Source: Actinomycetota bacterium (GTDB lineage: Bacteria; Actinomycetota; Actinomycetes; Mycobacteriales; JACQDL01). From it: a stretch of DNA of 64,000 nt. Every line of letters starts with the position of its first letter. Within the stretch, counting starts at the first letter, position 1. A program made the translations under genes and the position numbers. Shown piece after piece: positions 24,644 to 55,800 of this stretch. The notes beneath the pieces are model-generated. The model searched no databases, was not told the origin of the DNA, and saw nothing but the letters and a program-made list of their open reading frames with translations. The stretch lies in the NCBI GenBank assembly GCA_016201065.1, contig JACQDL010000061.1:1-64000 (forward strand). Reading direction: 5' to 3'.

Positions 24644-24666
24644 GGGATCTCCTGAGTTACACGGGG

Positions 24667-25464: not shown

Positions 25465-25501
25465 CGAGGTGACCTTCCGTCGTGACGATTACGCGCCCGG
25501 C

Positions 25502-38000: not shown

Positions 38001-40171
38001 GTGGCGTCGGCGGCGGCGAGGTCGACGACGCGCAACCGGATGCCATGGGTGCCCGGCGGGAGCACCTGTTGCCGGGGTTCGCCGTCCACCAGGGGGAACA
38101 CGGTGCGCAGCGCGGGGTGCCGGTCGGCCACCGCACGCAGCGCCATGTCCAGCGCGTCGACGTCGACGGCACCGGTGAGGTCGAACCGCTGGGCCACGTG
38201 GTAGATGGGGCTGTTGGGCCGCAGCTGGGACAGCAGCCACATCTGCCGCTGGCCGAGAGCCAGCGGTGCCAACCCGTCCGGCGCCAGAGCAGCGGGAGCC
38301 GACGGGTCCGGGTCCGGCGGGTCGGAGGCGGCGATGCGGTCCACGGCCGCGGCCAGCTCAGCGACCGTCGGGTGGTCGAACACCAGCCGCAGTGGCAGGT
38401 CGACGCCGAGGGTCGCGCTGGCCCGCGAGCGCAGCCGGCTGGCCTTCAGGGAATGGCCCCCGAGGTCGACGAAGGAGTCGTGGATCCCGACTGTCCGCCG
38501 TCCCAGAACCTCGCACCAGATCCCGACCAGGACCCGCTCGGTCGGGGTCCGCGGCCGCGCGGTGACAGTGCCGGTACTCGCGGCGCCGGTGTCCCGGTCG
38601 GGGCGGGGGAGCGCCGCAACGTCCACCTTCCCGCTGGGCGTCAACGGGAAGCGTGGCACCGTGACCAGCGCGCCCGGGACGAGGTGTGGGGGAAGGGTGC
38701 GCCGCGCGTGCGCGCGCAGCGCCTCCGCGTCGACGCCATCCCGTGGCACGGCGTAGGCGACCAGGATCAGCTCGCCGTCGTCCTGCCGGACAGCGCGGAC
38801 AACGGTCTCGGTCACCAGGCCCGAGTCGCGCAGGCACTGCTCGACCTCGCCGGGTTCGACCCGAAAGCCTCGGATCTTGACCTGGCTGTCGACGCGACCG
38901 ACGAACTCGACGACGCCGTCCGGGCGCTGCCGCACCAGGTCGCCGGTGCGGTACATCCGGGCGCCCGGTCGGGTCGTGAACGGGTCGGGCAGGAACCGCT
39001 CGGCGGTCAGCCGTGGGTGCCCGAGGTAGCCGCGGGCGACCCCGTCACCGCCGGCGTACAGCTCGCCGAGGTCGCCGGGCCGCACCGGCCGCAGCAGGTC
39101 GTCGAGCACGTAGGCGCTGGTGTTGGCGATCGGCCGGCCGATCGGGACGACGGCGTCGGTGTCGGTGAGGTCGCCGCACCGGTGGGTGGTGACAATGACG
39201 GTGCTCTCGGTCGGTCCGTAGGCGTTGCGGATCTCGGTGTCCGGGCAGTGCGCCAGCAGCCGCTGCACAGCCGCTCGGTCGGCGCGCTCACCGCCGAACA
39301 TCAGGTGCCGCAGCCCGGCGAACACACCGGGTGCCTCTTGGGCGAGCTGGTGCGCCAGCGCGGTGGTGAGGAAGAGCACGCTGACACCGTGTTCGCGCAG
39401 TCGCTGGCCGAGCCGCTCGGGCACCAGCACGTCCTGCGGTGGCAGTGGGACCAGCAGCGCGCCGTTGAGCAGCGCCACCCAGGTCTCGTAGGTCGCGGCG
39501 TCGAAGGAGATGGTCGCCGCCTGCACCACGACGTCGGCGGGCCCGACGTCGACATAGGTGGTGTTCCGCACGGTCCGGACCACGCCGCGGTGGGTCACGG
39601 CGACGCCCTTCGGCCGTCCGGTCGACCCGGACGTGAACATGACGTAGGCGAGCTGGTCGGGGTGCACCCGCACGTCCGGCCGGTGTGCCGGCAGGACGTC
39701 CAGCCGCAGCTCCGGGTCGTCGAGCAGGACCGGCCGGTCGAGGCCGGCGGGCAGCCGGTCGGCGAGATCCCCGGTGAGCAGGACGACATCCACCCCGGCA
39801 TCGCGGCACATCAGCTCCAGCCGTGGCTGCGGGTACGAGGGGTCCAGCGGCACGTAGCCGGCGCCGGCCTTCAGCGCCGCGAGGGCGCACACCACCCATT
39901 CCGCGCCCGGCCGCAGGTACACCCCGACCCGCGCCTCCGCGCCGACGCCGACGTCGCGCAGGTGGTGAGCGAGCCGGTTGGCCCGCACATCGAGCGCGCG
40001 GTAGGTCAGGGTGCGATCCGGCAGGCGCAGCGCGGGGGCGTCGGGCGTGCGGTCCGCCCACTCCTCGAAGACCGCGTGGACCGGTAGGTCGCGCGGGTAG
40101 TCGGTGGTGGTGTCGTTCCATCGGGCCAGCGTCCGAAGCAGTGCGTCGGCGCCGGTCGTCACGTCGGTCAT
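35024..40171 (-). CDS. NRPS1: A-PCP-C-A-PCP
   Basis: A 1715-residue bimodular NRPS. A1 about 30-520 (TSGSTGRPKG at 180, PSGKVDV at 512); PCP1 Ser574 in DLGGHSLK; C about 635-1060 with a canonical HHIACDG (765-771); A2 about 1085-1575; PCP2 Ser1629 in DLGGNSLL. The tail after 1670 is disordered Arg/Gly/Ala-rich. Because it opens with A-PCP it can start a chain. By hand alignment the specificity codes read DAYFMGAVI for A1 and DVSDTGAVT for A2; Asp at the fourth position of A2 is seen in codes for basic or amide residues, but I would not name the substrates. No TE or epimerase. Confidence 0.95.
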   Translation of the reverse strand: MTDVTTGADALLRTLARWNDTTTDYPRDLPVHAVFEEWADRTPDAPALRLPDRTLTYRALDVRANRLAHHLRDVGVGAEARVGVYLRPGAEWVVCALAALKAGAGYVPLDPSYPQPRLELMCRDAGVDVVLLTGDLADRLPAGLDRPVLLDDPELRLDVLPAHRPDVRVHPDQLAYVMFTSGSTGRPKGVAVTHRGVVRTVRNTTYVDVGPADVVVQAATISFDAATYETWVALLNGALLVPLPPQDVLVPERLGQRLREHGVSVLFLTTALAHQLAQEAPGVFAGLRHLMFGGERADRAAVQRLLAHCPDTEIRNAYGPTESTVIVTTHRCGDLTDTDAVVPIGRPIANTSAYVLDDLLRPVRPGDLGELYAGGDGVARGYLGHPRLTAERFLPDPFTTRPGARMYRTGDLVRQRPDGVVEFVGRVDSQVKIRGFRVEPGEVEQCLRDSGLVTETVVRAVRQDDGELILVAYAVPRDGVDAEALRAHARRTLPPHLVPGALVTVPRFPLTPSGKVDVAALPRPDRDTGAASTGTVTARPRTPTERVLVGIWCEVLGRRTVGIHDSFVDLGGHSLKASRLRSRASATLGVDLPLRLVFDHPTVAELAAAVDRIAASDPPDPDPSAPAALAPDGLAPLALGQRQMWLLSQLRPNSPIYHVAQRFDLTGAVDVDALDMALRAVADRHPALRTVFPLVDGEPRQQVLPPGTHGIRLRVVDLAAADATRLNSLLDVAAREPFDLATGPLVRVTLVRTDPELAVLLVCLHHIACDGWSMRIIYDELAACYAAHRAGTTPQLPPALPFAEVAADQERRLETRRRDLLARWEQALAGAPTALDLPTDRRRVAVLDDTGDRVTARWSPGLAQALSDLARRARLTPFVVLMAAFQALVYRHTGQRDVLVGSPVAGRTLLASEGVVGPFVNTLVVRGRIDDGTTFRQLLGQVRDTVLTALGDQELPFEFLVDRFCPNRDPGTQPLFQVMLAVEDGAAERLELPGLTARGTEWHTGTAKFDLTLALLPAPDQVEVRLEYRTQLFDRDTAHRFVERLERLLAAGLADPDRRVADLPLAGPEELAALRRAGAAAEPPEADPRAFPQQVRDWVVRTPDAPAVTLGCRTLSYRDLDRRARSVAAALLAAGAGAETLVGVHLRSSPDLVASFLGVLAAGAVYAPLDPTLPAERLRQVVADAGIGVVLGAPSSADLLRDLPVRVLPVDGLDWEAAPLVSELEPELEPVALDAAAYLIHTSGSTGRPKGVVATHRGLRSLAVGQRALLDVRPGERVLQFHSVGFDVSVSEMVTALSAGAELRLLGPDERAPGPDLAEALRRHDITVADLPPLTLGLMDPGTLPRLRSLTVGGEPCPVDVADAWSRGRELVNAYGPTETTVTATTARLTPGAESVPIGRPVPGARVYVLDAQLAPVPIGIAGDLYVGGPGVARGYLGDPALTAARFLPDPFADVAGTRMYRTGDVVRWLPTGILEFLGRRDGQVKIRGHRIELGEVEARLRGCAGVRRAGVALRQDRPGQPRLVGYLVAEGDQAPLGADVLRGQLRRHLPEWMVPDTFVVVDDLPMTAGGKLDVTALPVPGPERPVLGTGFVAPVSGTQGLVAGIWRELLGLERVGIHDNFFDLGGNSLLLARMRARLEAAVGRQVPTLELFRHPTVAMLARYLSDPAQPPGADPDSAAGARSPGGRDGQAAAGRRALAERGRRARGAGRQVRP

Positions 40172-41313
40172 CGGACACCTGCCAAGGTCGTCGGGGCCTC
40201 GAGTGCGGCCTTTGTCTCCCGGAGGAAGAGCAACGCGTCCCGGCCGTTGACCACCCGGTGGTCGTAGGCGACGCCGATGGTGGTGACCTGCCGGGGGACC
40301 ACCTCGCCACGGTCGTCAAGGATGAGCTCGCGCCGGACACCGCCCAGGCTCACGGCGCACACCAGATCCGGCGGCACGAGCGGTACAGCCACGGTGACGT
40401 CGGCCTCCCCCTGCAGCGAGACCACGATCGTGGCGCCGGTGAGGTCGGCGGTCCGGAAGGTCCGCGACGTGGCCCGCTCGCGGAAGTCCATCAGCACGTC
40501 GGCCAGTTGCGTGCAGGCCATCTCCTGTGCGTCGCGGACAACCGGGATGAACAGTCCGGTGCCGACATCGACCGTGACCCCGACGTGCGCGCCGTCCACC
40601 AGCCGCACGCTGCGGCCGTCATAGTTGGTGCCGAAGAAGAGCGGGAACCGCTCCCGCAGCCCGGCGAGCGCCTTGACCAACAGCTCGGGCAGCCCGACCA
40701 GGCAGCGGGTGCTGCGGCTGAGTCGGCGGGCCAGGTCGGTCGCCTGCTCGACGTCCACCGACACGGCGGTGAACGCCGCCGGCACGGTGCGGTGCGACTC
40801 GGTGACGACCGCAGCCACACCCTGCTGTGATCGCGGCAGCAGATGCACCCGCCCCGGCACCGCGTCGGTCGGAGCGGGTGCCGGGCCCACCGGGGTCGCG
40901 AGCTGCTCCACGTCCTCGCGCCGGACGACGGACCGGCCGAGGGCCCGCACCCGTTCGAGCGGGATCCCCAGCTCCTCGATCAGCGCCCGGGCCGGCCCGG
41001 TGAGCACCACACCGTCCTGGCCGGCTGCCGCTGCGGCGCCGCTGGGCGGTGCGGCGGCCAGGAAGCGCTGCCGTTCGCTTTCGGCGGCGAAGACGCGGCC
41101 GATGACCTCGCCCGGCCGGCATTCGCCACCCACAGCGACGACGTGGTGCAGCACGCCGGCGCCTTCGCAGACCAGCTCCTCGGCCGTCTTCGAGGTCTCC
41201 AGCACCACGACCGCGTCGCCGCGGCGGATGACCGCACCGTCGTCGACCAGCCAGTCCAGCAGGACGTAGGTGCGGTCGTTGGTGTTGAGCCGGGGCACCA
41301 CCACGTCAGCCAC
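40168..41313 (-). CDS. 2-oxoacid dehydrogenase E2 (acyltransferase) subunit
   Basis: A 381-residue E2 with a lipoyl domain (VVVLETSKTAEELVCEGAGV, lipoyl Lys about residue 42), a subunit-binding domain (VVLTGPARALIEELGIPLER, then VRALGRSVVRREDVEQL) and a CAT-type catalytic domain. The active-site segment reads DHRVVNG: the His (about 352) is kept but the usual Asp is Asn. With the adjacent E1alpha and E1beta and no E3, it should pass an acyl group from lipoyl to an acceptor, probably the cluster's ACP rather than CoA (inference by analogy with the Nap/Qnc C2-unit loaders). GTG start; overlaps the E1beta stop by 8 nt. Confidence 0.92.
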   Translation of the reverse strand: MADVVVPRLNTNDRTYVLLDWLVDDGAVIRRGDAVVVLETSKTAEELVCEGAGVLHHVVAVGGECRPGEVIGRVFAAESERQRFLAAAPPSGAAAAAGQDGVVLTGPARALIEELGIPLERVRALGRSVVRREDVEQLATPVGPAPAPTDAVPGRVHLLPRSQQGVAAVVTESHRTVPAAFTAVSVDVEQATDLARRLSRSTRCLVGLPELLVKALAGLRERFPLFFGTNYDGRSVRLVDGAHVGVTVDVGTGLFIPVVRDAQEMACTQLADVLMDFRERATSRTFRTADLTGATIVVSLQGEADVTVAVPLVPPDLVCAVSLGGVRRELILDDRGEVVPRQVTTIGVAYDHRVVNGRDALLFLRETKAALEAPTTLAGVR

Positions 41314-42334
41314 GATCGATCCCCCTTCGCAGGTAGTCCTTCACCATGTGCCGGATGTCCTCGTCCTGGACCAGGACCTCGTGCTCCAGGTGCGCCGTGC
41401 TCGGGACGACAGCGTCGCGGGCGTGCAGCTGCCGCACGGGAGCGCGCAGCCGGCCCCACAGCCGGGTGTGCACGTCGTGGGCGATGCCGGCACCCCAGGT
41501 GCCGCCCGCGGTGCTGTCCTCGACCACGACCACCTGCTGGGCCGCCGCGAGCACCGGGAGCAGCGGCTCGACGTCCAGCGGGTACAGCTGCGCCGGCACG
41601 AGCACCTCGGTCACGATCTCGTCCACCAGCAGCAAGGTGCGGGCCGCGGCCAGCGCCCGGCCCGCCAGTCCGCCCGGGCAGACCAGTACGCAGTCGGGCG
41701 CCCCGACGTCCTCAACCCGGGCTCGCGCCACCGACTGGGGGCCGAGGAGGTCGAACCCGAACAGGTCGTCCACCCGGCCGTCGCGGTGCGTCCGCTCGGT
41801 GTAGAGCACCTTGTCCTCGAACAGGATCGTGGGGCGTCCCCGCGCAAGGATCGCCGCGAAGATGTCACCGGCGTCGTGGAACGGCGAGAGTTCGAACAGC
41901 ACCAGGTTCGGGACGCCGAGGAAGTGTTTCTGCAGGCTCTGGCTGTGGGTCGGGCCATAGCCGCGGCGGCCTCCGGTGGGGCAGCGGATCACCAGCCGGA
42001 TCGGCACGACCCGGCCGAACATGGTCACCGCCTTGCTGGCGAAGTTGACGATCTGGTCGAACGCCAGCGTGACGAAGTCCGAGAACATGATCTCGGCGAT
42101 GGCCGTCTGTCCGGTGAGCGCCAGCCCGCCGGCAACGCCGACCAGGCCACCCTCGCTGATCGGAGTACCCAGCACACGGTCGGGGTGGCGGGTGGACAGG
42201 CCGTGGGTGACCTTGAACGCGCCACCGTACGGGTCGGTGATGTCCTCCCCGAGCAGGTACACCTTCGGATCCCGGTCCAGCAGGTCGCCCAGCGCCCGGT
42301 TGAGGTTCTCGACCACCCGCTCGGTATGGCTCAC
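41306..42334 (-). CDS. 2-oxoacid dehydrogenase E1 component, beta subunit
   Basis: A 342-residue transketolase-fold subunit of the PDH/acetoin-dehydrogenase type. Seen: VYLLGEDITDPYGGAFKVT, the TPISEGGLVGVAGGLALTG segment with the ThDP-activating Glu, the IRCPTGGRRGYGPTHSQS loop, and C-terminal EVLVPAQLYPLDVEPLLP. Together with the alpha subunit it decarboxylates a 2-oxoacid, or cleaves a ketose as in the Nap/Qnc systems, to form the acyl-lipoyl intermediate. The ATG overlaps the E1alpha stop (ATGA). Confidence 0.94.
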   Translation of the reverse strand: MSHTERVVENLNRALGDLLDRDPKVYLLGEDITDPYGGAFKVTHGLSTRHPDRVLGTPISEGGLVGVAGGLALTGQTAIAEIMFSDFVTLAFDQIVNFASKAVTMFGRVVPIRLVIRCPTGGRRGYGPTHSQSLQKHFLGVPNLVLFELSPFHDAGDIFAAILARGRPTILFEDKVLYTERTHRDGRVDDLFGFDLLGPQSVARARVEDVGAPDCVLVCPGGLAGRALAAARTLLLVDEIVTEVLVPAQLYPLDVEPLLPVLAAAQQVVVVEDSTAGGTWGAGIAHDVHTRLWGRLRAPVRQLHARDAVVPSTAHLEHEVLVQDEDIRHMVKDYLRRGIDRG

Positions 42335-43227
42335 GAATCCTCCCCGGTCACGGGTGGCCGCCGCAGGACGTCCTCCGACGCCGCCGCGACCCGGTCACGC
42401 TGCCGCTCGTCGGCCTGCCGCACGAGATCCGGGAATGCCGCGGCGTACTGGCGCAGCCAGTCGTTCTCATGCAGCCGGGCCAGGTGGTCGGCGTCGCGGG
42501 TGTCATCGCCCTTGCTGTGCGGACCGAGCCGCGTGGTGTGGAACTCCACCACGAGCGGTGCCGGTCGCTCCCGGACGGCGTCCAGATCGGAGCGCAGCTG
42601 GCGCCGGATCGCCGCGAGGTCCACCGAGTCGACCGGTACGTGCCGGATCCCGAACGCGGCGGCGCGGGCGGCGATCGAGCCGGCCAGGTGCCGGTGGGTC
42701 GGGGTGGACTGCGCGATCCCGTTGTGCTCGACCACGACCAGCAGGGGCAGCTGCCACAGCGCGGCGATGTTGAGCGCCTCGTACACCGCACCCTCGCCCC
42801 AGCTCCCGTCGCCCACATAGGCGACCGCGAGCCGGCCGGGTTCGGCGTCCCGGAGCCGCAGTGCGACGCCGGCCGCGACCGGGAGGCTCTGGCCCTGCAC
42901 GCCGGTCGACAGGTATCGGTCCCGCAGCAGGTGCTGGCTGCCGCCGACACCGTGGCAGACCGCGCCGCGCCGTCCGGTGATCTCGGCGAGCAGGCCGTGC
43001 GGGTCGTCGAAGCGCGCGAGGTAGTGGCCGTGCCCGCGGTGGTTGCTGAACACCCAGTCGTCCGGGCGCAACAACGGTTGCAGGGCGACCGGCACGTACT
43101 CCTGGCCGAGGCAGGTGTGCGTCGTACCCGACACCAGGCCCTCGGCGAACAACCGCAGCACGGTCCGCTCGACATGCCTGATCAGCAGCAGCAGGTCGAG
43201 GTCGGCCGGTGCCGGCTCGGTCAGCAT
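42331..43227 (-). CDS. 2-oxoacid dehydrogenase E1 component, alpha subunit
   Basis: A 298-residue thiamine-diphosphate enzyme subunit. The ThDP/Mg motif GDGSWGEGAVYEALNIAALW to VVEHN is intact (GDG...N), and VFSNHRGHGHYLARFDDPHG and HGVGGSQHL are the usual active-site segments. In place of primary metabolism it sits in the NRPS/PKS operon between ACP1 and E1beta, so it probably makes a two- or few-carbon acyl unit for an ACP. ATG 43227 overlaps the ACP1 stop (ATGCTGA); a GTG 24 bases earlier also opens the frame but would overlap by 31 nt. Confidence 0.94.
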   Translation of the reverse strand: MLTEPAPADLDLLLLIRHVERTVLRLFAEGLVSGTTHTCLGQEYVPVALQPLLRPDDWVFSNHRGHGHYLARFDDPHGLLAEITGRRGAVCHGVGGSQHLLRDRYLSTGVQGQSLPVAAGVALRLRDAEPGRLAVAYVGDGSWGEGAVYEALNIAALWQLPLLVVVEHNGIAQSTPTHRHLAGSIAARAAAFGIRHVPVDSVDLAAIRRQLRSDLDAVRERPAPLVVEFHTTRLGPHSKGDDTRDADHLARLHENDWLRQYAAAFPDLVRQADERQRDRVAAASEDVLRRPPVTGEDS

Positions 43228-43478
43228 GGCTCCTCCCGCGCCAGCATCCACGAGTCCGCGACCAGCGACACCACGTCCCGGACGGTCGTGGCGGACAGGT
43301 AGGCGCGCAGGTCCAGCCGGATGTCGAGGCGGTCCTCGAGCGCGGTCAGCAGCTGCAGCGCGGACAGGCTGGTCCAGGGATGCAGGGACTCGAAGCGGGT
43401 GGCGTCGTCGAGGTTCTCGGCCGGGACGCCGGTCACCTCCTCGAGTAGCCGGATGACGGTCGTGAGCGGCTCAGGCAT
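43221..43478 (-). CDS. Stand-alone acyl carrier protein ACP1
   Basis: An 85-residue four-helix carrier protein. The phosphopantetheine Ser is in HPWTSLSALQLLTALEDRLD (the Ser of TSL); the usual Asp before it is Thr. Genes on both sides overlap it: the FkbH-like stop by 8 nt and the E1alpha ATG by 7 nt. It is therefore the best candidate to accept both a glyceryl-type unit from the FkbH-like enzyme and an acyl unit from E1/E2. It will need the Sfp-type transferase at 30854. Confidence 0.88.
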   Translation of the reverse strand: MPEPLTTVIRLLEEVTGVPAENLDDATRFESLHPWTSLSALQLLTALEDRLDIRLDLRAYLSATTVRDVVSLVADSWMLAREEPC

Positions 43479-45372
43479 GGGCGGGCACTCCCTCGTCCTC
43501 GGGTGCGGTGGGGTCTTCGAGGGTGATCCAGTCCGGCAGCAGCGACGCCGGTGCGGGCAGCGGCAGGTCGTAGCGCACGCCGCCGTCCGGATCCTCGGTG
43601 CGGGTGAACCCGGCGGAGTCGAGGAACTCCCGGACCGGGTCGTTGCGCCCGCTGGGCCGCCAGCGGGCGCTCAGCCGTGGTGCTCCGGCCCGGCCGGCCT
43701 GGTTCACCACCGCCGACAGCACGGCGTGCTCGATGCCGCGGCCGAAGACGCGGCAGCTCATGACGAAGTTCTCCATCTCCCAGCCGTCGGCGGCCAGAGC
43801 CACCCACACCCCGCCCACCACGCCCTCGTCGCCGAACCGGTCCGCCACGGTGAACGCGAGCACCAGGTGGTTCGCGGACGCCGCCATGGCGCGGGTGCGG
43901 GCCTCCGGGCGGGTTCCGCCGGCGAGGTTGAACTGGTTCGTGCGCCGCTCCAGCTGGACCACCCGGAGCAGGGTGGCGCTGTCCGCGGGGCGGATGGTGA
44001 CCCGCAGGTCGAGATCGCGCAGGTAGTCGGCGGCCGACTCGAACGACGCGGCGACGTCGGCACGCCGTGCGCGCGCCCGGTACAGCTGGGTGCGCTCGCG
44101 GTCGGTGTCGCCGACCGCCAGGACGTCGAAGTGTCCGCGGGCGAGCAGGGTCGCGACGTGACCAGCGGGGTCGCCGGCAAGGTGGAGCACCTCGACGTCG
44201 GGCAACTCGCGCCGGATCAGCGCGCACTCGAAGCGGGAGTCGTCGGCGAACACGAAGCTGTCCAGGCGCAGGTCGAGGGTGCGGGACAGCTCGCGCAGGT
44301 TGTGATCCTTGCGGCCCCAGTTGACCGCCCGCGCGACAACGTCGTCCGGGCGCAACACCAGGTCCGGGTGCCGGGCGAACACCTCCTCGACCGCAGCGGG
44401 ATCGTTCTTGCTGCACAGCGCCAGCAGCACACCTTGCTGCCGCAGTGTGAGCGCGACCCGTTGCAGCTCGGTGTAGCAGTTGCCCGGGTAACCACCGCCG
44501 ATCTCCAAGCCGTCAGGGCCGTCGTCGCCGAGCACCCCGCCCCAGAGCGTGTTGTCCAGGTCGAGGACGAGCACCTTGCGGCCAAGACCGGCTACGGCCC
44601 GCGCCACTGTGGTGGCCTCCTGCGCGTAGTGCCGCTCGACGGCGGGCGTCCATGCCATCGAGGCGAACCGGTAGAGCCGGTCGTCGCGGACCGGGCCGGG
44701 GTGATCGACGAGCAGCGCCTCCAGATCGAGCACCTGTACCGATGGCAGCAACTCCGGCAGCTCCAGAAGACCCAGGTTGAACTCCCGCCACACGCGCCCC
44801 AGCGCCGCCTTCGACCGGTGCGCGATCACCGCTCGGTGCTCCGCGGGCGACAGCGGCACGGTGTGCAACAGCACCGTCCCTGGGATGCGCGCCGTGAAGC
44901 CGGCCAGCGCGCCGCGCAGCGCGCCGAGCCGGTCGGCGAGCACCTGGCGCAGCGCCTGCGGGGCGGCAGGGTCCCAGGACTGCGGCAGCACGGCGCCGTC
45001 GTGCAGCAGGCACAGGGTCAGGTCGGGGTCGAATCGGGCCAGCACCGATCCGGGGTCGGCCAGCTGCACCATGAGCTGGTCGAACCCGGCGAGCTGGAAG
45101 TGCGGCGCGATGCCGCCGCGCAGCAGCAGCACCCGCAACATGGGGACCACGGACTCCGCCGTGAAGGTACCGGTGACGCCGACCCGCATCGGGCGCAGTG
45201 GCCGGTCCGGCGGCGTGATCAGACCCGGCGGGACACCCTCCAGCAGCCGGCCGGCGGCGGCCAGCTCAGCGTTCCCGGTCACCCGACCCAGCGCGTCGCG
45301 CAGGTCCGGGTCCGGAGCGGCGCCCGCGGCGCGAACACGTCGGATCCGTTCCAGTACGTTCCCGTCGTCCAT
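43471..45372 (-). CDS. FkbH-like HAD-IIIC protein with intact catalytic motifs
   Basis: A 633-residue protein. An N-terminal FkbH-type domain (about 60-250; MRVGVTGTFTAESVVPMLRV, then FDQLMVQL) is followed by the HAD domain: DLDNTLWGGVLG (271-282), CSKND (320-324) and FADDSRFE (375-382), all intact. The C-terminal GNAT-like part holds ERRTNQFNLAGG and ENFVMSCRVFGRGIEHAVL. Characterised relatives load a glyceryl unit from 1,3-bisphosphoglycerate onto an ACP and remove the phosphate. No methoxymalonate genes (FkbI/G/K-type) accompany it, so the unit is probably used as a glyceryl group. It overlaps ACP1. Confidence 0.93.
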   Translation of the reverse strand: MDDGNVLERIRRVRAAGAAPDPDLRDALGRVTGNAELAAAGRLLEGVPPGLITPPDRPLRPMRVGVTGTFTAESVVPMLRVLLLRGGIAPHFQLAGFDQLMVQLADPGSVLARFDPDLTLCLLHDGAVLPQSWDPAAPQALRQVLADRLGALRGALAGFTARIPGTVLLHTVPLSPAEHRAVIAHRSKAALGRVWREFNLGLLELPELLPSVQVLDLEALLVDHPGPVRDDRLYRFASMAWTPAVERHYAQEATTVARAVAGLGRKVLVLDLDNTLWGGVLGDDGPDGLEIGGGYPGNCYTELQRVALTLRQQGVLLALCSKNDPAAVEEVFARHPDLVLRPDDVVARAVNWGRKDHNLRELSRTLDLRLDSFVFADDSRFECALIRRELPDVEVLHLAGDPAGHVATLLARGHFDVLAVGDTDRERTQLYRARARRADVAASFESAADYLRDLDLRVTIRPADSATLLRVVQLERRTNQFNLAGGTRPEARTRAMAASANHLVLAFTVADRFGDEGVVGGVWVALAADGWEMENFVMSCRVFGRGIEHAVLSAVVNQAGRAGAPRLSARWRPSGRNDPVREFLDSAGFTRTEDPDGGVRYDLPLPAPASLLPDWITLEDPTAPEDEGVPAHA

Positions 45373-45435: not shown

Positions 45436-46458
45436 TCACACCCGCAGGACGGTGCAGACCCAGTGCGTGCCGCTGCTCGTGCTGGTGAGGGCGACCAGAT
45501 CGCCATCGGACAACTCACCCGCCGCGAGGTGCTGCTCCAGGCTCAGCAGCTGATCCGCGCAGCCGACGTGGCCGTGTTCCAGGGCCAGCTCGACGTTGGT
45601 GCGCTCCAGCGGCACGTCCAGGTCCTTGGCCAGCTCGGTGAGCTGCTTGAGGTTGTCGTGGAGGTGCACGACGCGGGCCAGGTCGGCGATCTCGATGCCG
45701 GCCCTGGTGCAGGCGGCCTCGACGACCTCGCGCTGGCGCGCCCGGAGCGTCGCGACGAAGCTGAACATCCGGCGGACGTCGCCGTCGAAGAACACCTCAA
45801 GCCGCTCGAACGGGCTGCGTACCCTCGGCTGGTCGGGGTCTCCGGCGGTGAACGGGTGGGCCGCGCCACCGCGGTCCATCCGCATGAAGTCCGCGTAGCG
45901 ACCGTCGGTGAGCACGTGCGTGGTGAGCCAGCGGCAGCGGCCGTGATCCCGGCGGAGCACGGCCGCCGCGGCGCCGTCCGAGAACACACTGGTGTTGATC
46001 TCCATGCGGTTCCAGTACGGCTCGCAGACCCGGTTGGCGCCGACCAGCAGCGCGGTCCGGTACTCCGCGTGGGTGGCGAACCTCCCGGCGACCGCGTCGA
46101 AGCCGGCGACGCCGCCGCCACACGCCTGACTGAGCAGCACCGCCTCTGCGCGGTGCGCGCCGAGCCCGGCCTGGGTGGCCGCGGCCGGGTCCCAGTACAG
46201 GTACTCGACGAGGTCGGAAACGGCCAGGACGACCAGGTCGACATCCGCGGCGTCGACGCCGGCCGCCGCCAGCGCGCGCCTCCCGGCGTCGACGGCGAGA
46301 TCGGTGAGGCCGACGCCGTCGGGTGCCCGGTGGAAGCCGCGGTACCCCCAGCTCGCGACCCGCTCCAGATCGTCGGTGTACCGGGGGGCCGCCTCGGCGA
46401 CGTCCGCGCGGTCGCCGAGGACGTGGCCGAGGCCGAGGATCCCGAACACCGCGCTCAC
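45436..46458 (-). CDS. KAS III-like (FabH-type) ketosynthase/acyltransferase
   Basis: A 340-residue thiolase-fold protein. The nucleophile Cys113 is in LLSQACGGGVAGF. The His region reads VVHLHDNLKQL, and the segment normally GNTSAA (with the third catalytic residue Asn) reads EHGHVGCADQLL. Cys-His-Asp variants of this family act as acyltransferases (CerJ/ChlB3-type) rather than condensing enzymes, so transfer of an acyl group from an ACP to O or N, or C-C bond formation with a glyceryl-type unit as in tetronates, are both possible. GTG start overlapping the next upstream gene's stop. Confidence 0.86.
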   Translation of the reverse strand: MSAVFGILGLGHVLGDRADVAEAAPRYTDDLERVASWGYRGFHRAPDGVGLTDLAVDAGRRALAAAGVDAADVDLVVLAVSDLVEYLYWDPAAATQAGLGAHRAEAVLLSQACGGGVAGFDAVAGRFATHAEYRTALLVGANRVCEPYWNRMEINTSVFSDGAAAAVLRRDHGRCRWLTTHVLTDGRYADFMRMDRGGAAHPFTAGDPDQPRVRSPFERLEVFFDGDVRRMFSFVATLRARQREVVEAACTRAGIEIADLARVVHLHDNLKQLTELAKDLDVPLERTNVELALEHGHVGCADQLLSLEQHLAAGELSDGDLVALTSTSSGTHWVCTVLRV

Positions 46459-48152
46459 CCCCGCTCGATCGTCACGTCGAGCCGCAGCGGCCGGCCGGCC
46501 ACCGCTGACCAGTCCCGTCCAGCCGCCTCGCCCAGGAAGCGCAGCGCGGACCCGTTGACGCCCGTGTCTCGCGCGGTGACGGTGAGCCGGTCGCAGCCGG
46601 CCCGGCCGGCCCGCCCCACCAGCTCCGCCAGCACGGCCGCCTCAACGCCCTTGGCGAGCACCGGGCAGGACACCGAGAACAGGTCGACGACGCCCACGGC
46701 CCCGTCTAGGAGCCGCATCCGGACCGCCGCTCCGAGTCCGTAGTCCGCGAGCCGGTCCCGGATCGTGACGGCGAGCAGCCCGTCGAGGCCGGCCGCCAGA
46801 TCGGTGAGATCGCTCGGCCGGCCGAGGGTGAAGTCCTTGGCCCGCGCGACCAGCTCGGCGATGTCGGCCAGGCGGTCGACCGGTGCTGGTCGGATCTCGA
46901 GCCGCACGTCGAGTCCGGCGACGTAGTCAGCCAGCGACATGGCGGCGGCCGGTCCGGTCGCGGCAGTGACCGGGGGCGGGCGGCCGGGCGCCAGCGGCCG
47001 GGCGCCGGCGTCAGGGTCGCCGGCGTCCGGGTCGGGGAGTCGGTCGAACAGGCCGCTCGCCAGCAGCTGCGCGGGCCACTCCTCCGGCTCCCCGGCGAGG
47101 ACGACGGTTCGGGCGTCGTGCTGGCGGCTACCGAGGTCGTCGGCGAGCAGCGGATCCGTGGTGATCACGGCCACCGCACCCGCCAGCTCGTCGGCGTCCG
47201 CTGCCAGCGCACGCACCTGGTCGCGCGCGGGTCGGCGGTCGACCGCCCAGCCCGGAGCCAGGTCGCGCAGCAGCTCCGGGAACGCCGTCACCAGAGGACC
47301 CAAGGCCACGCGTCCGGGCGATCCGCGCAGCGCGACCCGGAGGCCGGCGGCGTGCAGCTGGAGCAGCGGCTCCCGCAGCGCGGTCACGGCGTCGAGAGCC
47401 TGGGTGCCGGCGGCGCCGGTCCGGTCCGGCGAGACGTCGACCGCCAGCAGGGCGTCGCCGTCGAGGACGACGACCCGGTGGCGGCGGGCGTGACGCAGGG
47501 CAATGATCCGGCCCAGCTGGTCACCCAGCCGGGCGTAGAGCTCCTCGGTGTAGGGCACTCTGGCGTACCGGAACATCGCGGGGTGGAACGCGCGCGCGAG
47601 GCCGACCCGGCGGACCGCCTCCTCGGCGTCCGCCACCAAGACGTTCGGGCGCCCGGCCAGCAGCTGCCGGACCGCCTCCCGGGCGGCGGTCGCCGCGGCC
47701 ACCACGCCACCCGGATCCGCAGCGTCACCGACCCCCTCGGGTCGCCGGTCGGGGATCTCGGGCAGCACGACGAGCAGGCACGACCCCCACCACCGGGCCG
47801 CGGCCGAGGCAGCCTCCACGACGCCGACCAACTCCTCCACCCAGCCGCGCCGGGCGGACACCGGACCGAGCTCGGTCAGCCGGGGCGCCACCACGAGCAC
47901 GTCGGGCCGGGACCGCGCGAACCCGCCCGAGTCGTCCAGGCACTGCTGGGTGATCTGGTTGGCCGGGCCGACCTCCACGGACGCCGCCAGCCCGGCCCGG
48001 TGCAGCGCCATGCCGAGGTAGGGCACCAGCGGGTCGGCCGTGTAGCTGGCCAGCACACCCACCGTGAGCTGGGGCGCCTGCTGGCTCCCGCGCACCTGCC
48101 GCCACCGGGCCCGCAGCGCGCGCAGGTCGCCATCCGGATGTGTGTCGCGCAT
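46455..48152 (-). CDS. Degenerate FkbH-like protein (HAD motifs lost)
   Basis: A 565-residue paralogue of the gene at 43471 with the same order of parts: N-terminal FkbH-type domain (LTVGVLASYTADPLVPYLGM), HAD-like middle and GNAT-like C terminus (FSVSCPVLAKGVEAAVLAEL). The HAD motifs are damaged: DLDNT is replaced by DGDAL (231-235), the Lys motif CSKND by RGSPG (276-280), and FADDS by TTDPL. ERRTNQFN has become VARAKDFT. The frame is intact with good codon use, so it is a maintained pseudo-enzyme, possibly a carrier-protein binder or acyltransferase. It is 8 bp from ACP2, mirroring the FkbH/ACP1 pair. Confidence 0.85.
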   Translation of the reverse strand: MRDTHPDGDLRALRARWRQVRGSQQAPQLTVGVLASYTADPLVPYLGMALHRAGLAASVEVGPANQITQQCLDDSGGFARSRPDVLVVAPRLTELGPVSARRGWVEELVGVVEAASAAARWWGSCLLVVLPEIPDRRPEGVGDAADPGGVVAAATAAREAVRQLLAGRPNVLVADAEEAVRRVGLARAFHPAMFRYARVPYTEELYARLGDQLGRIIALRHARRHRVVVLDGDALLAVDVSPDRTGAAGTQALDAVTALREPLLQLHAAGLRVALRGSPGRVALGPLVTAFPELLRDLAPGWAVDRRPARDQVRALAADADELAGAVAVITTDPLLADDLGSRQHDARTVVLAGEPEEWPAQLLASGLFDRLPDPDAGDPDAGARPLAPGRPPPVTAATGPAAAMSLADYVAGLDVRLEIRPAPVDRLADIAELVARAKDFTLGRPSDLTDLAAGLDGLLAVTIRDRLADYGLGAAVRMRLLDGAVGVVDLFSVSCPVLAKGVEAAVLAELVGRAGRAGCDRLTVTARDTGVNGSALRFLGEAAGRDWSAVAGRPLRLDVTIERG

Positions 48153-48160
48153 GTCGCCCC

Positions 48161-48409
48161 CTAGACCTTGGCGCCCTTGGCGCGCATGACGTCCCGGACC
48201 TGACCGATCGAGCGCAGGTCGCGGATCTCGCGGTAGGAGAAGGACAGGCCGTACGCCTCCTCGAGGGTCACCATGAGCTGGAGATGCCGCAGGCTGGTCC
48301 AGGCCGCGAGCGTGTCCGGGCCGGCACCGTCGACCACCTCGGTCGGGTCGACCTCGAACACCTCGGCGACGACGCGGACGAACTCGCCGCCCGCCCCCGG
48401 CGCGCTCAC
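48161..48409 (-). CDS. Stand-alone acyl carrier protein ACP2
   Basis: An 82-residue carrier protein. The attachment Ser is in LAAWTSLRHLQLMVTLEEAY; as in ACP1 the residue before it is Thr rather than Asp. The C-terminal helix YREIRDLRSIGQVRDVMRAK is typical of ACPs that travel with FkbH-like proteins. GTG 48409 overlaps the exporter stop (GTGA). Adjacent to the degenerate FkbH-like gene, it is a natural partner for that protein or for the KAS III-like enzyme. Confidence 0.87.
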   Translation of the reverse strand: MSAPGAGGEFVRVVAEVFEVDPTEVVDGAGPDTLAAWTSLRHLQLMVTLEEAYGLSFSYREIRDLRSIGQVRDVMRAKGAKV

Positions 48410-49833
48410 GGCTCCACCGGCGCTGGCTCCAGCGCCGGCCCCGCCCCCTCGGGGCGCGGCGCGGTCCGCGACCCGTCCGGGCGCTCGCTGGGCTGCCGCC
48501 GGCCGGGTGGTGGCTCGAGATCGACGTCCGGCAGGATGCTCTCGATCCGCCGGATGTCGGGCACCGCGAAACCGATGACGGCGACCGCCGCGCCGAGCAG
48601 GCCGACGATGACGTACATCAGCCCGATGCCGGCACCGGGACCGGTCCCGACCAGGTCCGCGAACAGCCGGGCGCCGGTGTGGCCCGGACGCATCCACGGC
48701 TCAAGCACCCGGTCCACGAGCGGACCGGCGATCAGGGCGGCCAGCGGGATGGTGAGGTCCTCGACGAACTGGCGGGCGGCCATCACCCGCCCCTGAGCAT
48801 GCGGTACGACCTTTTCCTGGAAGAGGGTCTGCGCGTAGCCGTCGATGAACGGAATGCACAGGTGAACGACGAGCAGGGCGACCGCCCACGCCACCCAGTT
48901 CTGCCCGACGCCGTACAGCACCCGGCCGACGAGGCTGAACACCATGATTGACACCAGCACCCTGCGCATCTTGTGTGGCGTCCGCGGCAGTGTGCCGAGC
49001 AGCACCGCGCCGGTCACCCCACCGATCGCCGCGAGCGTCTGCACCAGGCCGACCTGCGCCTCGTCGTTGCCGGTCCGGGCCAGGATCAGTGGGATCAGGA
49101 GCAGGAAGCCGACGGAGGCGAAGAGGTTGATCGAGAACATGATCGCCTCGAGGAATGCCAGCGGACGCCGGGCCCGGAGGTAGCGGAAGCCGTAGAGGGC
49201 GTCCTGCCACAGGCTCGCCGGTCCGGCCTCACCGCTGGCAGGGATCGGTGGCAGGGTGACCAGCAGCGTCACCCCGATCGCGGCGAGGTACGACAGGACG
49301 TCGATCAGCAGGACCACGCGGATGTCGGTGTGGGCGAGCAGCGCCGCCGCGAGCCCCGGGGCGAAGATGACCGGGACCGACCGGACCGCGAACATCATCG
49401 CGTTGGCCCTCGGGTAGGCGCCCCGCTCCACCATCACGGTGATCGTCGCCGAGTAGGCCGGTCCCTGGAACGCGAGGAAGGCGCCGGTCGCGGCGTTCAC
49501 CGCGTACAGCTGCCACATGCTGACCGAGTGGGTGGTGAACAACACCAACACCGCCAGGGTGGCCACGGCCGACCCCACGTCGCTGAGCACGATCGTGAGC
49601 CGCCGGCTCCATCGGTCGATGAGCGCGCCGGCCACCGGGCTGAACACCACGGTCGCCGTGAAGGCGCAGAAGGTGAGCATGACGAAGTCGGTCGCCCGCC
49701 CGGTGGCCTCCCACACCCAGATGCTCAGGGCGAAGTTCGTCATCCGGGTCCCCACCGCCGACAGCAGCTGGCCGAACCAGATGGTGGTGAACCCGGCAAA
49801 CCTCGAAGGTCGTCGTAGCGCCGTCACGGTCAT
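48406..49833 (-). CDS. MFS exporter (DHA3/EntS-like)
   Basis: A 475-residue major-facilitator protein with 12 TM helices. DHA3-type features: IWFGQLLSAVGTRMTNFALS at the start, PVAGALIDRWSRRLTIVLSD (motif A) and VVPHAQGRVMAARQFVEDLT between the halves. The tail after about 430 is a Pro/Arg-rich cytosolic extension. Position inside the operon, overlapping NRPS2 and ACP2 by 4 nt each, marks it as the probable exporter of the cluster product. ATG 49833 overlaps the NRPS2 stop. Confidence 0.93.
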   Translation of the reverse strand: MTVTALRRPSRFAGFTTIWFGQLLSAVGTRMTNFALSIWVWEATGRATDFVMLTFCAFTATVVFSPVAGALIDRWSRRLTIVLSDVGSAVATLAVLVLFTTHSVSMWQLYAVNAATGAFLAFQGPAYSATITVMVERGAYPRANAMMFAVRSVPVIFAPGLAAALLAHTDIRVVLLIDVLSYLAAIGVTLLVTLPPIPASGEAGPASLWQDALYGFRYLRARRPLAFLEAIMFSINLFASVGFLLLIPLILARTGNDEAQVGLVQTLAAIGGVTGAVLLGTLPRTPHKMRRVLVSIMVFSLVGRVLYGVGQNWVAWAVALLVVHLCIPFIDGYAQTLFQEKVVPHAQGRVMAARQFVEDLTIPLAALIAGPLVDRVLEPWMRPGHTGARLFADLVGTGPGAGIGLMYVIVGLLGAAVAVIGFAVPDIRRIESILPDVDLEPPPGRRQPSERPDGSRTAPRPEGAGPALEPAPVEP

Positions 49834-52800
49834 CCCCTCTGGTGGTGGTCGTGGTACTGGTCCCGCTGTTCGTCGAGCAGGCATCCGGCGGCGAGGCGGC
49901 GCAGCCGGGCGAGCGTGCCGTCGAGCAGCCGCTGCGCGGTGCTCCGGCGGTATGCCGTCGTGCCGTAGCTGAGGTCGACCCGCAGTCGGCCGGCGACCAT
50001 CGACCCGGCGACGTCGACCGGGAAGGGCCAGCGGCCGTCGGGGTCCTCGGTGGAGCCGTAGGGCGCGGTGCAGACCTCGAACCAGGGCTGTTGGCCGGGC
50101 ACCTCGTCGAAGCCGAAGTTGCCCATGTAGTTGACCGCGAGCCACGGGTACCCGTGCTCGGTCAGCCGCCGCCGTACGTCGAGGTCGCGGGATCCGTAGC
50201 GCAGCGCGCCGTACCCGATCCCGTTGCGCGGTACCCGACGCAGCTGACGGACGACGTCGGCCGCACCGTCGACGTCCGTGGCGTCCATGCGCAGCCGGAG
50301 CCGGATCGGGTAGAGCACCTGGAACCAGCCCACCGTGCGTGAGACGTCCACGTCGTGGAAGAGGTCCTCGCGGCCGTGCCCGGTGGTGGCGAGGGCGCAC
50401 ACGTCGCTGCCGGCGCTGTCGGCCACGGTCGCGGCGACCGCCCAGACCAGCAGGTCGCGGATGCCGCCGCCGACCCGCCGCGCGGCCTCGTGCAGGCCGG
50501 CTGTCACCTCGCCGTCGAGCGCGTCGCCGATCCCACCGAGGGTGCCCAGCGTGGTGGCCCCCGACGGGTCGTCCGGGGCCACCACGGCCGCGCCGTCGGC
50601 GTGCTGGTCGAGCCAGAACGGCAGCTCCGCCTGGGTCGTCGCGCGGTTGGCCCAGGCCGCGAGCCGGTGGCTCCAGGCGAGGTAGGACGTGGTCCGGCCG
50701 GGCAGCACCGGCGTACTGCCGCACTCCAGCTGCCCGCACAGGCTCTGCAGGTCGTCCAGCAGGATGCCACGGGACACCGCGTCGACCACCAGGTGGTGCG
50801 TCACGATCAGCAGCCGGTCCCGGTGCGGCGCCGGGAGCCGCACATGGAGCACCCGCACGGTCGGACCGGCGTGCAGGTCCAACTGGGTCTGTTCGGTGGC
50901 GGCAAGCCGCTCGACCGCGGTGTCGAGGTCGGCTGGACCGGTCGTACGTAGGTCGTGGCTGGTAAACGGAACGGCGTCCGCGACCGGCGCGCAACGCTGC
51001 CGCCAGCCGCCGGTGGCGTCAGGGTCGCTGTCGAAACGCAAGCGCAGCGCGTCGTGGTGTTCGACCAGCAGCCGGACGGCGGTGCCGAGCGTCGCGGGCG
51101 CGACCGGCCGCACCACCTCCAGGTAGTAGGGATGGTTGAAGTGAGCCGGGCGGCGCATCCGCGGCGCGAGCTCGGTGAGGAACCAGCTCTGGGCGGGGGT
51201 GACCGGGCCGGCCTCGGCCGGCGCTGGCGTGGCGCCGTCCGGTGCGCCCACGGTGGCGGTGGCCGCGACGCCTCCGGCGTCAGCCAGCACGCACAGCTGG
51301 GCGATGGTGGGATGCGCGACGAGCTGCCGTGGCGTGATCGACACGCCCGCCGCCGTGGCCTGGTGCACCAGCCGCATGGCGAGCAGCGAGTCCCCGCCGA
51401 GGTCGAAGAAGTCGTCGTGGACGCCGACCTCCGGCAGCCGCAGCAGGTCGGCCCAGATCGCGGCCAGCAGCCGCTCCCGAGGCGTCCGGGGCAGGGCCGA
51501 CGCCCGGTTCGCGACCCGTCGGTACCCGTTGTCGACCGCGGACCGGATCGCGGCCGCCGTCGGTAGGTCGGCGGCCAGGTCGACGTATCGTTGCGCGGTC
51601 GTCGGCGGGTTGTCCGCGCTCGCCACGGTTGGGATGTCGTCCGGGCCGGCAGTGTCGAGCAGCCACAGCCGCGCCGCGATGCCGCCCAGCGGCTGGTCGG
51701 CCGGCAGCAGGAGTACGGTCGCGGCGGGGTGGGCGGTGCGTACCGCCGCCACGACCTCCGGGTCGCGGTGCAGCACCAGGGCCTGCGACGGGTCGCCGAG
51801 CCCCGCCACCACAGCCGGCAGGTCACCGGGGTCGCCCGGTGCCACCCGGGCGGCACCGGCGGCCACCAGCGCGGCCAGATCCGGCGCGCCGGGGGCGGCC
51901 GTGAGGACGACGTCCCGGCCTCGCGCCGCTTGGTCGCGCACCAGGCGGCCGACGTCGCCGGGGGTGCCGGCAGCCGGGTCGAGCACCAACCTGTCCGGGT
52001 GCCGCCGCAGCCCGCGGTCGGCGGCGCGGGCAACCAGGGTGCCTGCGATGACCTCGAGCGCTGCGGTGTCGGTGGGGGAGGCCGCGTACCGCCGGGCCCA
52101 TGCCGCGACCGGTTCGACGCTCACGTGCGCGTACCTCGCGCACGCCCGGCGCAACCGTTGGGTCACGTCGGCCACCATTCCGGGCCAGGGATCGTGGGCA
52201 CCGGCGAGCGCGCCGGGCACCACCCCGATCAGCAGCGGGGCTGGGTTCCGCAGGCGGAACCGACGGACCGCCTCGACGAGATCGCGCAGTGCACCGTCCA
52301 GCCGGGTGGCCGCAGCGGGCAGGGCACGCGGTGCGGACAGGTCAGCGCCGGTCAGCCAGTCCTCCCAGCGCAGCAGCACCACGGCGAGGCCGTCCGGATC
52401 GGCGAACGGTCCATCGATGTCCAACAGCGGCCGGAGTACCTGGCAGCGGCCGGCGGGGAGCAGCTCCAGCCCCGGGCGCACCTGCGCCGCCCAGAACCGT
52501 GCCGTGGCGAGCACCGGCTCGACCGGGAAGGATGCCGCGACGGTCACCCGGTGCCCATGAGCGCGGATCGGTGCCGGCGCCGGAACACGACCGCGGGTCG
52601 GGCCGATCGGCTCGTCCGGCCGTGCCAGCAACTCGGATACCGTCGCGGTAAAGCGGTCGAGCAGCCGCCGGGCGCGCCGCGGTGCGGACAGGTCGGCGCG
52701 GTAGGTCAGGTCGGCCCGCAGCTCGCCGTCACCCCAGCTGAGGGTGAGGAAGAGGTCGAAGTCGACGCCCGGCGCGCCCACCTCGATCGGCTCGACGTCG

Positions 52801-55800
52801 AGGCCGGACAGCCGCGGCGTCTCGTCAACGAGGTCGAGCAGGTTGAAGACGCTCTGGAACAGCGGGTGCCGGGAGGCGTCGCGGGGCAGCCGCAATGCCT
52901 CCACGATCCCGGCGAAGGGCACACCCTTGTGCCGATAGGCCTCCAGCCCCGTGGTGTGCACGCGGCGCAGCAGCCGACGGAACGACGGCCACCCGGTGAG
53001 GTCCAGCCGGAATGGGAGCAGGTCGGTGCAGCACCCGATCAGCCGTTCCAGCTCCGGCCGGTCCCGGCCGGCCCACGGCACGCCGACCACCAGGTCCGAC
53101 TGCCCGCTCTCGTGCCGCAACAGCACCGCGAACGCGGCCAGCAGCACGGTGAACGGCGACACCCCTTCGGCCCTGGCCAGCTCGCGTACGGCGGCCCCGA
53201 GACCGGCGGGCAGCGTCGCCGCCTGGTGGCCGGCCCGATCCGAGCGGACCGCCGGACGCTCGTGGTCGATGGGCAGGTCGATCGCGGTCGGAGCGCCGTG
53301 GAGGGCCCGCCGCCAGTAGGCGACGTCCGCAGCGGTCGCGGCGGCGTCCTGGCGCTGCCGTTCGTCGTAGGCGACGTCGCCGAACTGCAGCGGCAGCGGG
53401 GGCAGCGGCGACGGGAGGCCGGCGACGAATGCCCCGTACAGCTCGACAAGCTCGTCCAGGAAGAGGCTCCAGCTGGTGTTGTCGCAGATGATGTGGTGCA
53501 TGCCGATGAGCAGTAGGTGCTGGTCGTGGCCGGTGACCAGGAGCCGCACCCGTAGCAGCGGCCCGGTCGCCAGGTCGTACCGGTTCTCGACGTGCCGGTC
53601 GATCTCCACGCGGGCGGCAGCGTCGCGCTCGGCCATGGACCGGTCGGTGAGGTCGATCGGCGCCAACCAGCAGTCCAACTCGGGGTGGACGACGGGGGCC
53701 GCCTCGCCGCGGCGGCTCGTGAACGTGGTACGCAGGGACTCGTGCCGGGCCACGATCTCCGCCACGGACCGGCGCAGCGCCGTGACGTCGAGCGGACCGG
53801 TCAGCCGCGCCGCGAAGGTAGTGTTGTGTCGCGCCGTGTCGGCGTTGAGTTCGGCCAGCGCCCACAAACGCTGCTGGGTCGAGGACGCCACCGGTTCGGC
53901 ACCGGACGGAGCGGGCCCCAGTGGAGTGGTGGACTCGGTGGCGTCGTCCAGCAGCCGAGCCAGCTGCTCCACGGTCGGGTTGGTGAACAGCGCGTAGAGC
54001 GAGACGTCACGGCCGAACTCGGCCTTCACCTGGGACAGCACCTGGGTGGCCACCAGCGAGTGGCCGCCGAGGGAAAAGAAGTCGGCGGTGACGCTGACCC
54101 GATCGACCGGCAGCATCCGCTGCCACAGCGCAGCCAGCCGCTCCTCGGTGGGTGTGCGGGGCGCGACGTACGCGTGGTCCGCAGTCGCCGGGGGGCGGAC
54201 GGGCACCAGCCGCTCCAGCAGGGCGGCCGGGTTCGCCATCGTCTCCGTGACCAGGACGGCCCGCTCGGCCCCGGCTGGCGTGGCCAGCCGACCCGGTCCG
54301 AGCAGGCCGCCCGACCCGTCGGGAATCCCGTGGAGCAGGCGGCCGATCTCGGCCGCGAGCAACGCGGAGTACCGCGCGGTGTAGGGGACGTGCCCGAGCC
54401 GGTCGGCCTGCTCGTCGGCGACCGGGTCGGCCGAAACGTCGGCCGTGGATCCGTCCGGGTCCCGCGCCCAGACCACCCGCGTCCCGGGCACGCGGGAGCC
54501 CAGCAGGGCAAGCCCGTCGTCCAGCCGGCCCAGGACTGTGGCCCACTCGCCGTCCCGGAAACGACCCGAGGCGGGGCACACCACGAGCAGCAGCGGTGCC
54601 GTGGTCTGGCGTCGGTAGGCCCGGACCCCGGACTCCAGGTCGGTCATCGCGGCGTCGAGGATCGTCGCGGCCGCCGCCGGGCCCTCCTCGGGGTCACACC
54701 GGCGCAGCCAGTCCTGCCAGCGGATCAGGCAGACAGCAGCCGCCCGGTCGGCGGGAGCGAACAAGTGCTGGATCAGCTGGCCGTAGCCGACCGGGGTCAC
54801 CCCAACGGGCACTCTCAGCAGCCGCAGCCAGGCCTCGAGCGGGGCCCGGACAAGGTCCGCAGTGAAGGTCGCGGCCAGGGCCACCTCGTCGCGCCGCAGC
54901 GCGCCGAACGACGCCAGCGGCCGCTCGGGCTCATGGGCCGCATCGGCCAGCTCGGTGAAGCCGTCGACCGCGGCCGACACGAGCCCCTCGACCGTTTCGT
55001 CCAGATAGAGGTCGGTGTTGTAGTGAACGGCACCATGCAGGCCGTCAGCGCCCCTGGTGAGGGCGATGAAGAGGTCGAAGTCGGTCAGGTCCGAGTCGAC
55101 CGGAACCTGCGCCACGGTCAGCCCGGCGGCGGTCAGGGACTCCTCACCCGCCTCCGCGACGGTCAGCATCACCTGGAACAGCGGGTTACGGCTGGGGTCC
55201 CGCCGGCCGCCCACCTGCTCCACCACCCGCGCGTAGGGCGCCTGCTGGTGCTGGAACGCCGCACTCACCGCGCGATGGGTCAGGGTGAGCAACTGCTCCA
55301 CCGTGGGGTCGCCGGACAGGTCGAGCCGCATCACCAGCACGTTGGCAAACGAGCCGATCAGCGGTTCGAGCTCGGTGCGCGGCCGTCCCGCCGACGGCAT
55401 TCCCAGTGTCACGTCGTCCTGGCCGTTGAACCGGCGCAGCAGAGCCGCGAACCCGGCCAGCAGGACAGCGTTGAGGGTGGCGCCCGCGCCGCGCCCCTGC
55501 CGCGCCAGGCCGTCGGTCACGACGGCGGAAAGGACGAACTCCCGGTGCCGGCCGCGGTGGGACTGCACAGCCGGACGCGGGTGGTCGGGCGGCAGGGTGC
55601 ACTCCGGTGGCAGGCCGTCGAGCCGGTCGCGCCAGTAGGCAAGGTGCTGCTGCATCACGGCGAGCGCCGCGGGTTCGCGATACCGCCGGGCGTGGTCGAC
55701 GAACTGGGTGGTCAGCGCGGGCAGCCGGGCCGGCCCTTCGCCCGAAAGCTCGCCGTAGAGCGCGACCAGGTCGCGTGTGAAGACGTCCGCGGACCAGGCG

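Follow-up and report, generated by a model that had tools for sequence, protein, structure and literature searches.

The pseudo-FkbH protein encoded in the window (the whole stretch of DNA analysed here, 64,000 nucleotides long) probably loads the adenylation-less modules of a nonribosomal peptide synthetase (NRPS) from outside. For the more specific reading, in which this FkbH homologue, psFkbH, acts only as a transferase and passes a hydroxyacyl unit in trans from the carrier protein ACP2 to the X-T modules of the NRPS, the chances appear about even. The C-X-T modules lack both phosphatase and transferase, and psFkbH lacks the phosphatase; since the two are complementary in this way, trans-loading is the simplest account. 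Loading from outside is considered probable because the modules found with psFkbH lack just the transfer half that it has kept.

The psFkbH gene (46455..48152, minus strand; 565 aa with an ATG start) belongs to an operon of 13 minus-strand genes that are closely spaced or overlapping. The adenylation-less NRPS (49830..56327) is encoded first, followed by an MFS transporter (48406..49818) and by ACP2 (48161..48409), a carrier with an intact WTSL serine that adjoins psFkbH on the same strand. ACP2 ends at 48161 and the psFkbH ATG lies at 48152, so that the 8 bp of spacing in the original prediction is confirmed, as is a full-length frame of FkbH origin, located on the minus strand. A KASIII-like protein (45436..46458) overlaps the psFkbH stop by 4 nt. 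After it come a canonical FkbH of the glyceryl-ACP synthase type with the full HAD motif set (43471..45372), its partner carrier ACP1 (43221..43478), and a glycolyl-type cassette composed of an E1-alpha-like ThDP protein of 306 aa (42331..43251), an E1-beta-like protein of 342 aa (41306..42334) and an E2-like protein of 381 aa with a lipoyl domain (40168..41313). An NRPS with the domains A-T-C-A-T (35024..40171), a PKS module (KS-AT-ACP, 31830..35027) and an MbtH-like protein (31633..31833) complete the operon. psFkbH and ACP2 were also said to repeat the FkbH-ACP1 arrangement; the pairing is indeed repeated, but the order differs, with FkbH preceding ACP1 and ACP2 preceding psFkbH. Cytochrome c oxidase genes (COX1, COX2, COX3 and CtaG-type) at 22107-27397 adjoin the biosynthetic cluster.

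The first NRPS, of 2165 aa, has three condensation and two carrier domains in the order C-X1-T-C-X2-T-C and no adenylation domain; Pfam finds only Condensation and PP-binding in it. X1 (54192..54896, minus strand; NRPS aa 478-712) occupies the place of an A domain. X2 (51528..52580, minus strand; NRPS aa 1250-1600) is a second domain of the same NEX type and includes a stretch that by eye resembles a HAD remnant. These two FkbH-derived domains were overlooked in the original prediction. psFkbH had no significant pairwise blastp match in the NRPS, and X1 and X2 are visible by profile comparison only. X1 aligns with the FkbH N domain at E 1.3e-8 (175 columns), with psFkbH at 5e-16 and with X2 at 1.4e-31; for X2 the values are 3e-6 with FkbH and 3.7e-10 with psFkbH. 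No Pfam family was found in psFkbH, FkbH, X1 or X2. Among PDB structures, the X1 model (pLDDT 86.7) matches BF1531 and GDSL esterases, at E 1.6e-5 to 3.8e-5. Judged from sequence, X1 and X2 are N-terminal domains of FkbH that stand alone, the phosphatase and transferase having been lost, and the C-X-T modules look like FkbH-bearing NRPS modules after loss of those two parts. The three condensation domains carry HHxxxD motifs (HHIIFDA, HHIICDN and HHLVVDA), whose presence decides nothing on ester formation.

The closest printed precedent is BurF/BurH. In the part of the malleicyprol work available, BurF is a noncanonical NRPS module that contains NEX, a domain like the N-terminal one of FkbH, and receives an alpha-hydroxy acid on its T domain by loading in trans (PMC12304814). 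Its authors suggest that NEX mediates contact with the transfer protein, the other FkbH subdomains having possibly been lost from BurF (PMC12304814). The X1/X2 domain appears to be this NEX, matched by description and not by BurF sequence. As in BurF, the window NRPS has an FkbH N-terminal-like domain beside T and no A domain. A single NEX is described for BurF in that part of the paper, whereas the window has two and a separate FkbH-derived transferase. BurF loading used BurJ, BurH and ATP, while no stand-alone A domain was seen within the window; an A domain of this kind encoded outside the window could charge these T domains. FkbH domains are known to take the place of A domains in NRPS modules, where they charge T with glycerate (PMC8949500, seen in part). 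The C-FkbH-T modules of vioprolide and cystomanamide described there resemble the window NRPS in having FkbH material at the A-domain place, but their FkbH loads in cis (PMC8949500); the window NRPS keeps the N part only, the transferase being a separate gene.

Bare X1 domains and psFkbH occur together. The X1 profile has matches in 21 of 397 genomes. Outside psFkbH clusters, 14 regions from 12 of these genomes were read, and in all 14 an intact HAD and C domain follows the X1-like domain, in free-standing proteins or inside NRPS or PKS-NRPS proteins. G325 is known from the match alone, with X1 and A1 matches in one 3742-aa frame. When the 20 other X1 genomes were searched with A1, matches of psFkbH type that span the N domain, at E 2.4e-67 or better, were obtained in eight (G239, G381, G278, G393, G392, G222, G357 and G246). 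psFkbH is thus found in 9/9 genomes with bare X1, the window included, and in 0/12 with complete FkbH only; G357 holds both kinds, and the G246 locus, L152, is broken. Some of the nine genomes are closely related to one another (Micromonospora, Lentzea and others), so these are not nine independent events and no significance is claimed. L152 (7962-14780) contains a tandem X1-X2-like frame without C or T, an ACP2-like carrier, E1/E2 and a short-cut psFkbH. It was considered as a minimal version of the system and rejected, since transposases lie around and inside it and its psFkbH is truncated.

The family was collected in several searches. The KASIII protein has matches in 31 of 397 genomes of the order, and psFkbH was present at 6 of the 20 places read. 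A scan with a 7-row psFkbH alignment gave 16 loci among named genomes, hosted by Lentzea, Micromonospora, Kutzneria, Saccharothrix, Actinophytocola and a Streptomyces diastatochromogenes contig. Of these, five had already appeared among the earlier six; adding L065 and the window brings the number of distinct loci to 18. Contig ends cut two of them inside psFkbH (L097, L098), leaving 16 full-length members. A contig scan with psFkbH alone produced 221 pattern matches and no relative, and in a phylum-wide A1 search (396 genomes) the window's own psFkbH was recovered, all other matches being weaker and of FkbH type. A link to foxicin through S. diastatochromogenes was rejected: the FkbH of that pathway is part of a PKS-NRPS protein, and no such cassette stands in the list of its genes, in the part of the paper seen (PMC5318452).

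ACP2 is present at all 18 loci, while the possible suppliers of its acyl group vary. KASIII, FkbH, ACP1 and E1/E2 occur together at six loci (the window, L065 and L084-L087, with the E2 of L087 cut). Six others (L091-L096) have KASIII, FkbH and ACP1 with E1/E2 not nearby; genome-wide, no E1-alpha match at E 1e-40 was found for L091, L092 and L095, the L093 genome has one match on another contig, that of L094 has two at 37-38% identity, and the one in the L096 genome belongs to the L083 locus. At four loci (L083, L088, L090 and L097) E1/E2 are found and no FkbH or KASIII is seen; the first three were read 10 kb past psFkbH, and in L097 the contig ends inside psFkbH. Kutzneria L089 has E1/E2 and KASIII about 16-21 kb away from psFkbH, and L098 is the remaining locus, cut by its contig end. 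In genome-wide searches the KASIII family is absent from two of the genomes that have such loci with no FkbH nearby, G780 (only a 30% match) and G786 (none). FkbH genes lie elsewhere or in other clusters in five of six genomes searched (those of L083, L088, L089, L090 and L097, and G246, the one without). With FkbH absent near three loci and KASIII absent from two genomes, neither is obligate at the locus, and a dependence of psFkbH on either is weakened by L083, L088 and L090.

Several related layouts and motif variants were seen alongside. In L069-L073, a sister layout, KASIII, an ACP2-like carrier, E1-alpha, E1-beta and E2 stand by NRPS genes and neither FkbH nor psFkbH is present; L074-L079 have KASIII, FkbH and ACP1 only. 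L094 (9974-12526), from Actinophytocola xinjiangensis, has psFkbH fused to KASIII in a frame of 851 aa, a single case and possibly an assembly error. The window KASIII-like protein keeps its Cys and has HDN and GHVGCADQ at the places of the FabH His and Asn motifs; among the matches listed, a GHxGxADQ-type sequence is common to most KASIII relatives from FkbH-type and E1/E2-type clusters. The usual acyltransferase motif of E2 proteins is HxxxDG. The window E2 (lipoyl Lys stretch LETSKTAEE) has HRVVNG at this place, with an Asn common to the E2s of L065, L084-L086, L069-L073, L152 and L169. For L083, L088, L090 and L097 no E2 was matched in the comparison of this motif.

psFkbH is recognizable as an FkbH relative despite its divergence. 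TIGR01686 matches it with 55.3 bits (5.4e-15) over aa 405-546 only, below the cut-off of 146.65, versus 288 bits for the neighbouring FkbH; a profile-profile alignment of psFkbH with FkbH gives E 4e-38 over 485 columns. Taken with the TIGR01686 match, this value indicates that the likeness is not chance. A PDB sequence search with psFkbH gave nothing meaningful. Its predicted structure (mean pLDDT 82.6) aligns with BF1531 (3slr) over residues 7-374 (Z 28.5, rmsd 5.0, 353 aligned), and three parts can be distinguished. The SGNH-like N domain (aa ~25-225) resembles a GDSL protein over residues 28-217 (Z 14.8, rmsd 2.7, 159 aligned), the HAD remnant (~221-371; degenerate core at 47040..47492, minus strand) resembles the HAD protein MDP-1 over residues 221-371 (Z 12.5, rmsd 3.6, 137 aligned), and the GNAT-like C domain (~414-565; 46458..46913, minus strand) resembles a GNAT acetyltransferase over residues 416-565 (Z 13.8, rmsd 2.5, 125 aligned). 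The SGNH-HAD-GNAT order and the SC motif are shared with the FkbH family of glyceryl transferase/phosphatases such as OzmB (TIGR01686). Unlike that family, psFkbH has no working HAD motif set, scores far under the cut-off and lacks the canonical RTNQF.

An unlikely alternative, though one to be taken seriously, is that psFkbH is a true pseudoenzyme: devoid of catalysis, it would serve FkbH, KASIII or ACP2 as a scaffold or allosteric partner. The loss of several catalytic motifs would fit this, as would the KASIII fusion in L094 and an N domain that has the lowest dN/dS of the three psFkbH parts in five of eight close pairs. The C domain argues against a dead protein: D466, G472, S495, C496 and N533 (numbering of the window's psFkbH) are invariant in 48/48 FkbH-type proteins aligned, so that the Asp, Gly, Ser, Cys and Asn of the GNAT domain are kept in 16/16 psFkbHs, and with them the C-terminal SC motif. 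The supposed partners FkbH and KASIII are, moreover, missing from the loci and genomes named above, and the 'non-catalytic partner' offered as one option in the original prediction fits less well with L083, L088 and L090, which have psFkbH, ACP2 and E1/E2 and no FkbH nearby. The other option, a transferase without phosphatase activity, is consistent with the retained GNAT-fold domain and its Cys. This Cys may act as an acyl carrier in psFkbH; in the literature searched, with partial coverage, no documentation of a role for the Cys of canonical FkbH was found.

It is also conceivable, if rather improbable, that psFkbH delivers the hydroxyacyl group not to the NRPS but to KASIII, or from one free carrier to the other (ACP1 to ACP2). 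ACP2 adjoins psFkbH and KASIII follows with its short overlap, and the L094 fusion could tie psFkbH to the KASIII step instead. L083, L088 and L090 hold psFkbH and ACP2 with no ACP1, FkbH or KASIII nearby, and such a role would leave the tight link between psFkbH and bare X domains unexplained.

The phosphatase part is where psFkbH has changed most. HAD motifs II, III and IV are kept in none of the 16 psFkbHs and are intact in 18/18 stand-alone FkbHs and in 14/14 other complete FkbHs; the latter are free-standing or NRPS-embedded, and thus not all are C-FkbH-T modules. The complete set (DxDxT, S-K-N, Lys, DD) is likewise found in 0/16 psFkbHs versus 18/18 stand-alone FkbHs. This family alignment, named beforehand as a check, bears out the loss of phosphatase motifs, with some corrections of detail. 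DGDAL does replace DLDNT in the window protein, and both Asp residues of DxD survive; full DxDxT is present in no member, DxD alone in 10/16, and in the other six it is lost. RGSPG is present too, but replaces the SKND stretch (motif II) and not the Lys motif, a separate element (GRKDHN) that is also lost by alignment. The acidic FADDS loop is gone as predicted, with ITTDP in its place, and RTNQFN has changed to RAKDFT, so that substrate-binding residues may perhaps be lost as well. Invariant columns in the HAD stretch fall from 46 in FkbH to 2 in psFkbH; the corresponding numbers are 19 and 37 for the N domain and 33 and 15 for the C domain. The HAD stretch is 70 residues at its shortest and partly deleted in Lentzea, and the alignment of such divergent remnants is uncertain. 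That psFkbH is still an active glyceryl-ACP synthase for ACP2, like a normal FkbH, is therefore very improbable: the DxD kept in some members, the window's included, speaks for it, and the family-wide loss of motifs II-IV and the reduced HAD core speak against it.

Selection and phylogeny indicate a maintained protein. All 16 full-length psFkbHs fall into a single clade (support 100/98) in a tree built from 48 C-terminal domains, and dN/dS over the whole protein is 0.23-0.49, indicating purifying selection, in 8/8 close pairs. Together with the 18 loci that include ACP2, these results argue that psFkbH is not a decaying copy. A functionless gene, for which motif loss and the clearly broken L152 amid transposases might be cited, is hardly credible and largely refuted on sequence grounds, given the purifying selection, the frame open in all 16 members and the conserved operon position.

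For the preferred reading, trans-loading of the X-T modules, a sequence of steps can be proposed. ACP2 would carry a small hydroxyacyl unit, presumably glycolyl supplied by the E1-alpha/E1-beta/E2 cassette; where a cluster has FkbH, ACP1 and KASIII, glyceryl might also, or instead, be found on it. The C domain of psFkbH would take the unit off ACP2, and the X domains would serve as landing sites for psFkbH, allowing it to load the T domains next to them in trans. The NRPS condensation domains would then build the unit into the chain, forming esters if its hydroxyl is the nucleophile. Both the identity of the acyl group and the direction of transfer between psFkbH and ACP2 are putative.

The supply of glycolyl has parallels. 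SclQ1-4 and QncN/L/M are reported to make and attach a glycolyl unit (PMC6335953, seen in part). By description, these cassettes, like the window, comprise an ACP, a ThDP protein, a pyrimidine/C-terminal protein and a lipoyl-acyltransferase (PMC6335953); the lengths are near equal (76/305/338/386 aa in Qnc/Scl versus 82/306/342/381 aa in the window), a likeness of lengths and not of sequences. The window operon thus holds the E1-alpha, E1-beta, lipoyl E2 and ACP by which a glycolyl cassette is recognized. No FkbH homologue is named for Qnc/SclQ in the text available (PMC6335953), whereas FkbH, psFkbH and KASIII share the window operon. The tetronate glycerate-utilisation operon also groups a FabH-like protein, FkbH and a stand-alone ACP (PMC7489565, in part); the window differs in having a full E1/E2 set instead of a lone Agg4-type acyltransferase. 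An Agg5-type dehydratase is absent from the 13 operon genes of the window, which therefore does not class with the tetronate operons.

A wider view, put forward tentatively and with somewhat less confidence than the transferase role itself, is that FkbH has been split much like a trans-AT system, with the N domain kept twice in the NRPS as a docking site, the phosphatase lost and the transferase acting in trans, fed by ACP2 as a dedicated carrier on which interchangeable suppliers would place glycolyl or glyceryl. In titles and abstracts of the literature searched, with partial coverage, no phosphatase-less FkbH with such A-less modules was found. NEX function is directly testable here, because the domain and the transferase are separate proteins. 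If the proposal is true, psFkbH is a trans-acting hydroxyacyl transferase for adenylation-less NRPS modules. Such modules are a standing puzzle of genome mining; a trans-loading partner recognizable from its sequence would allow prediction and would offer a route for glycolate or glycerate units into peptides.
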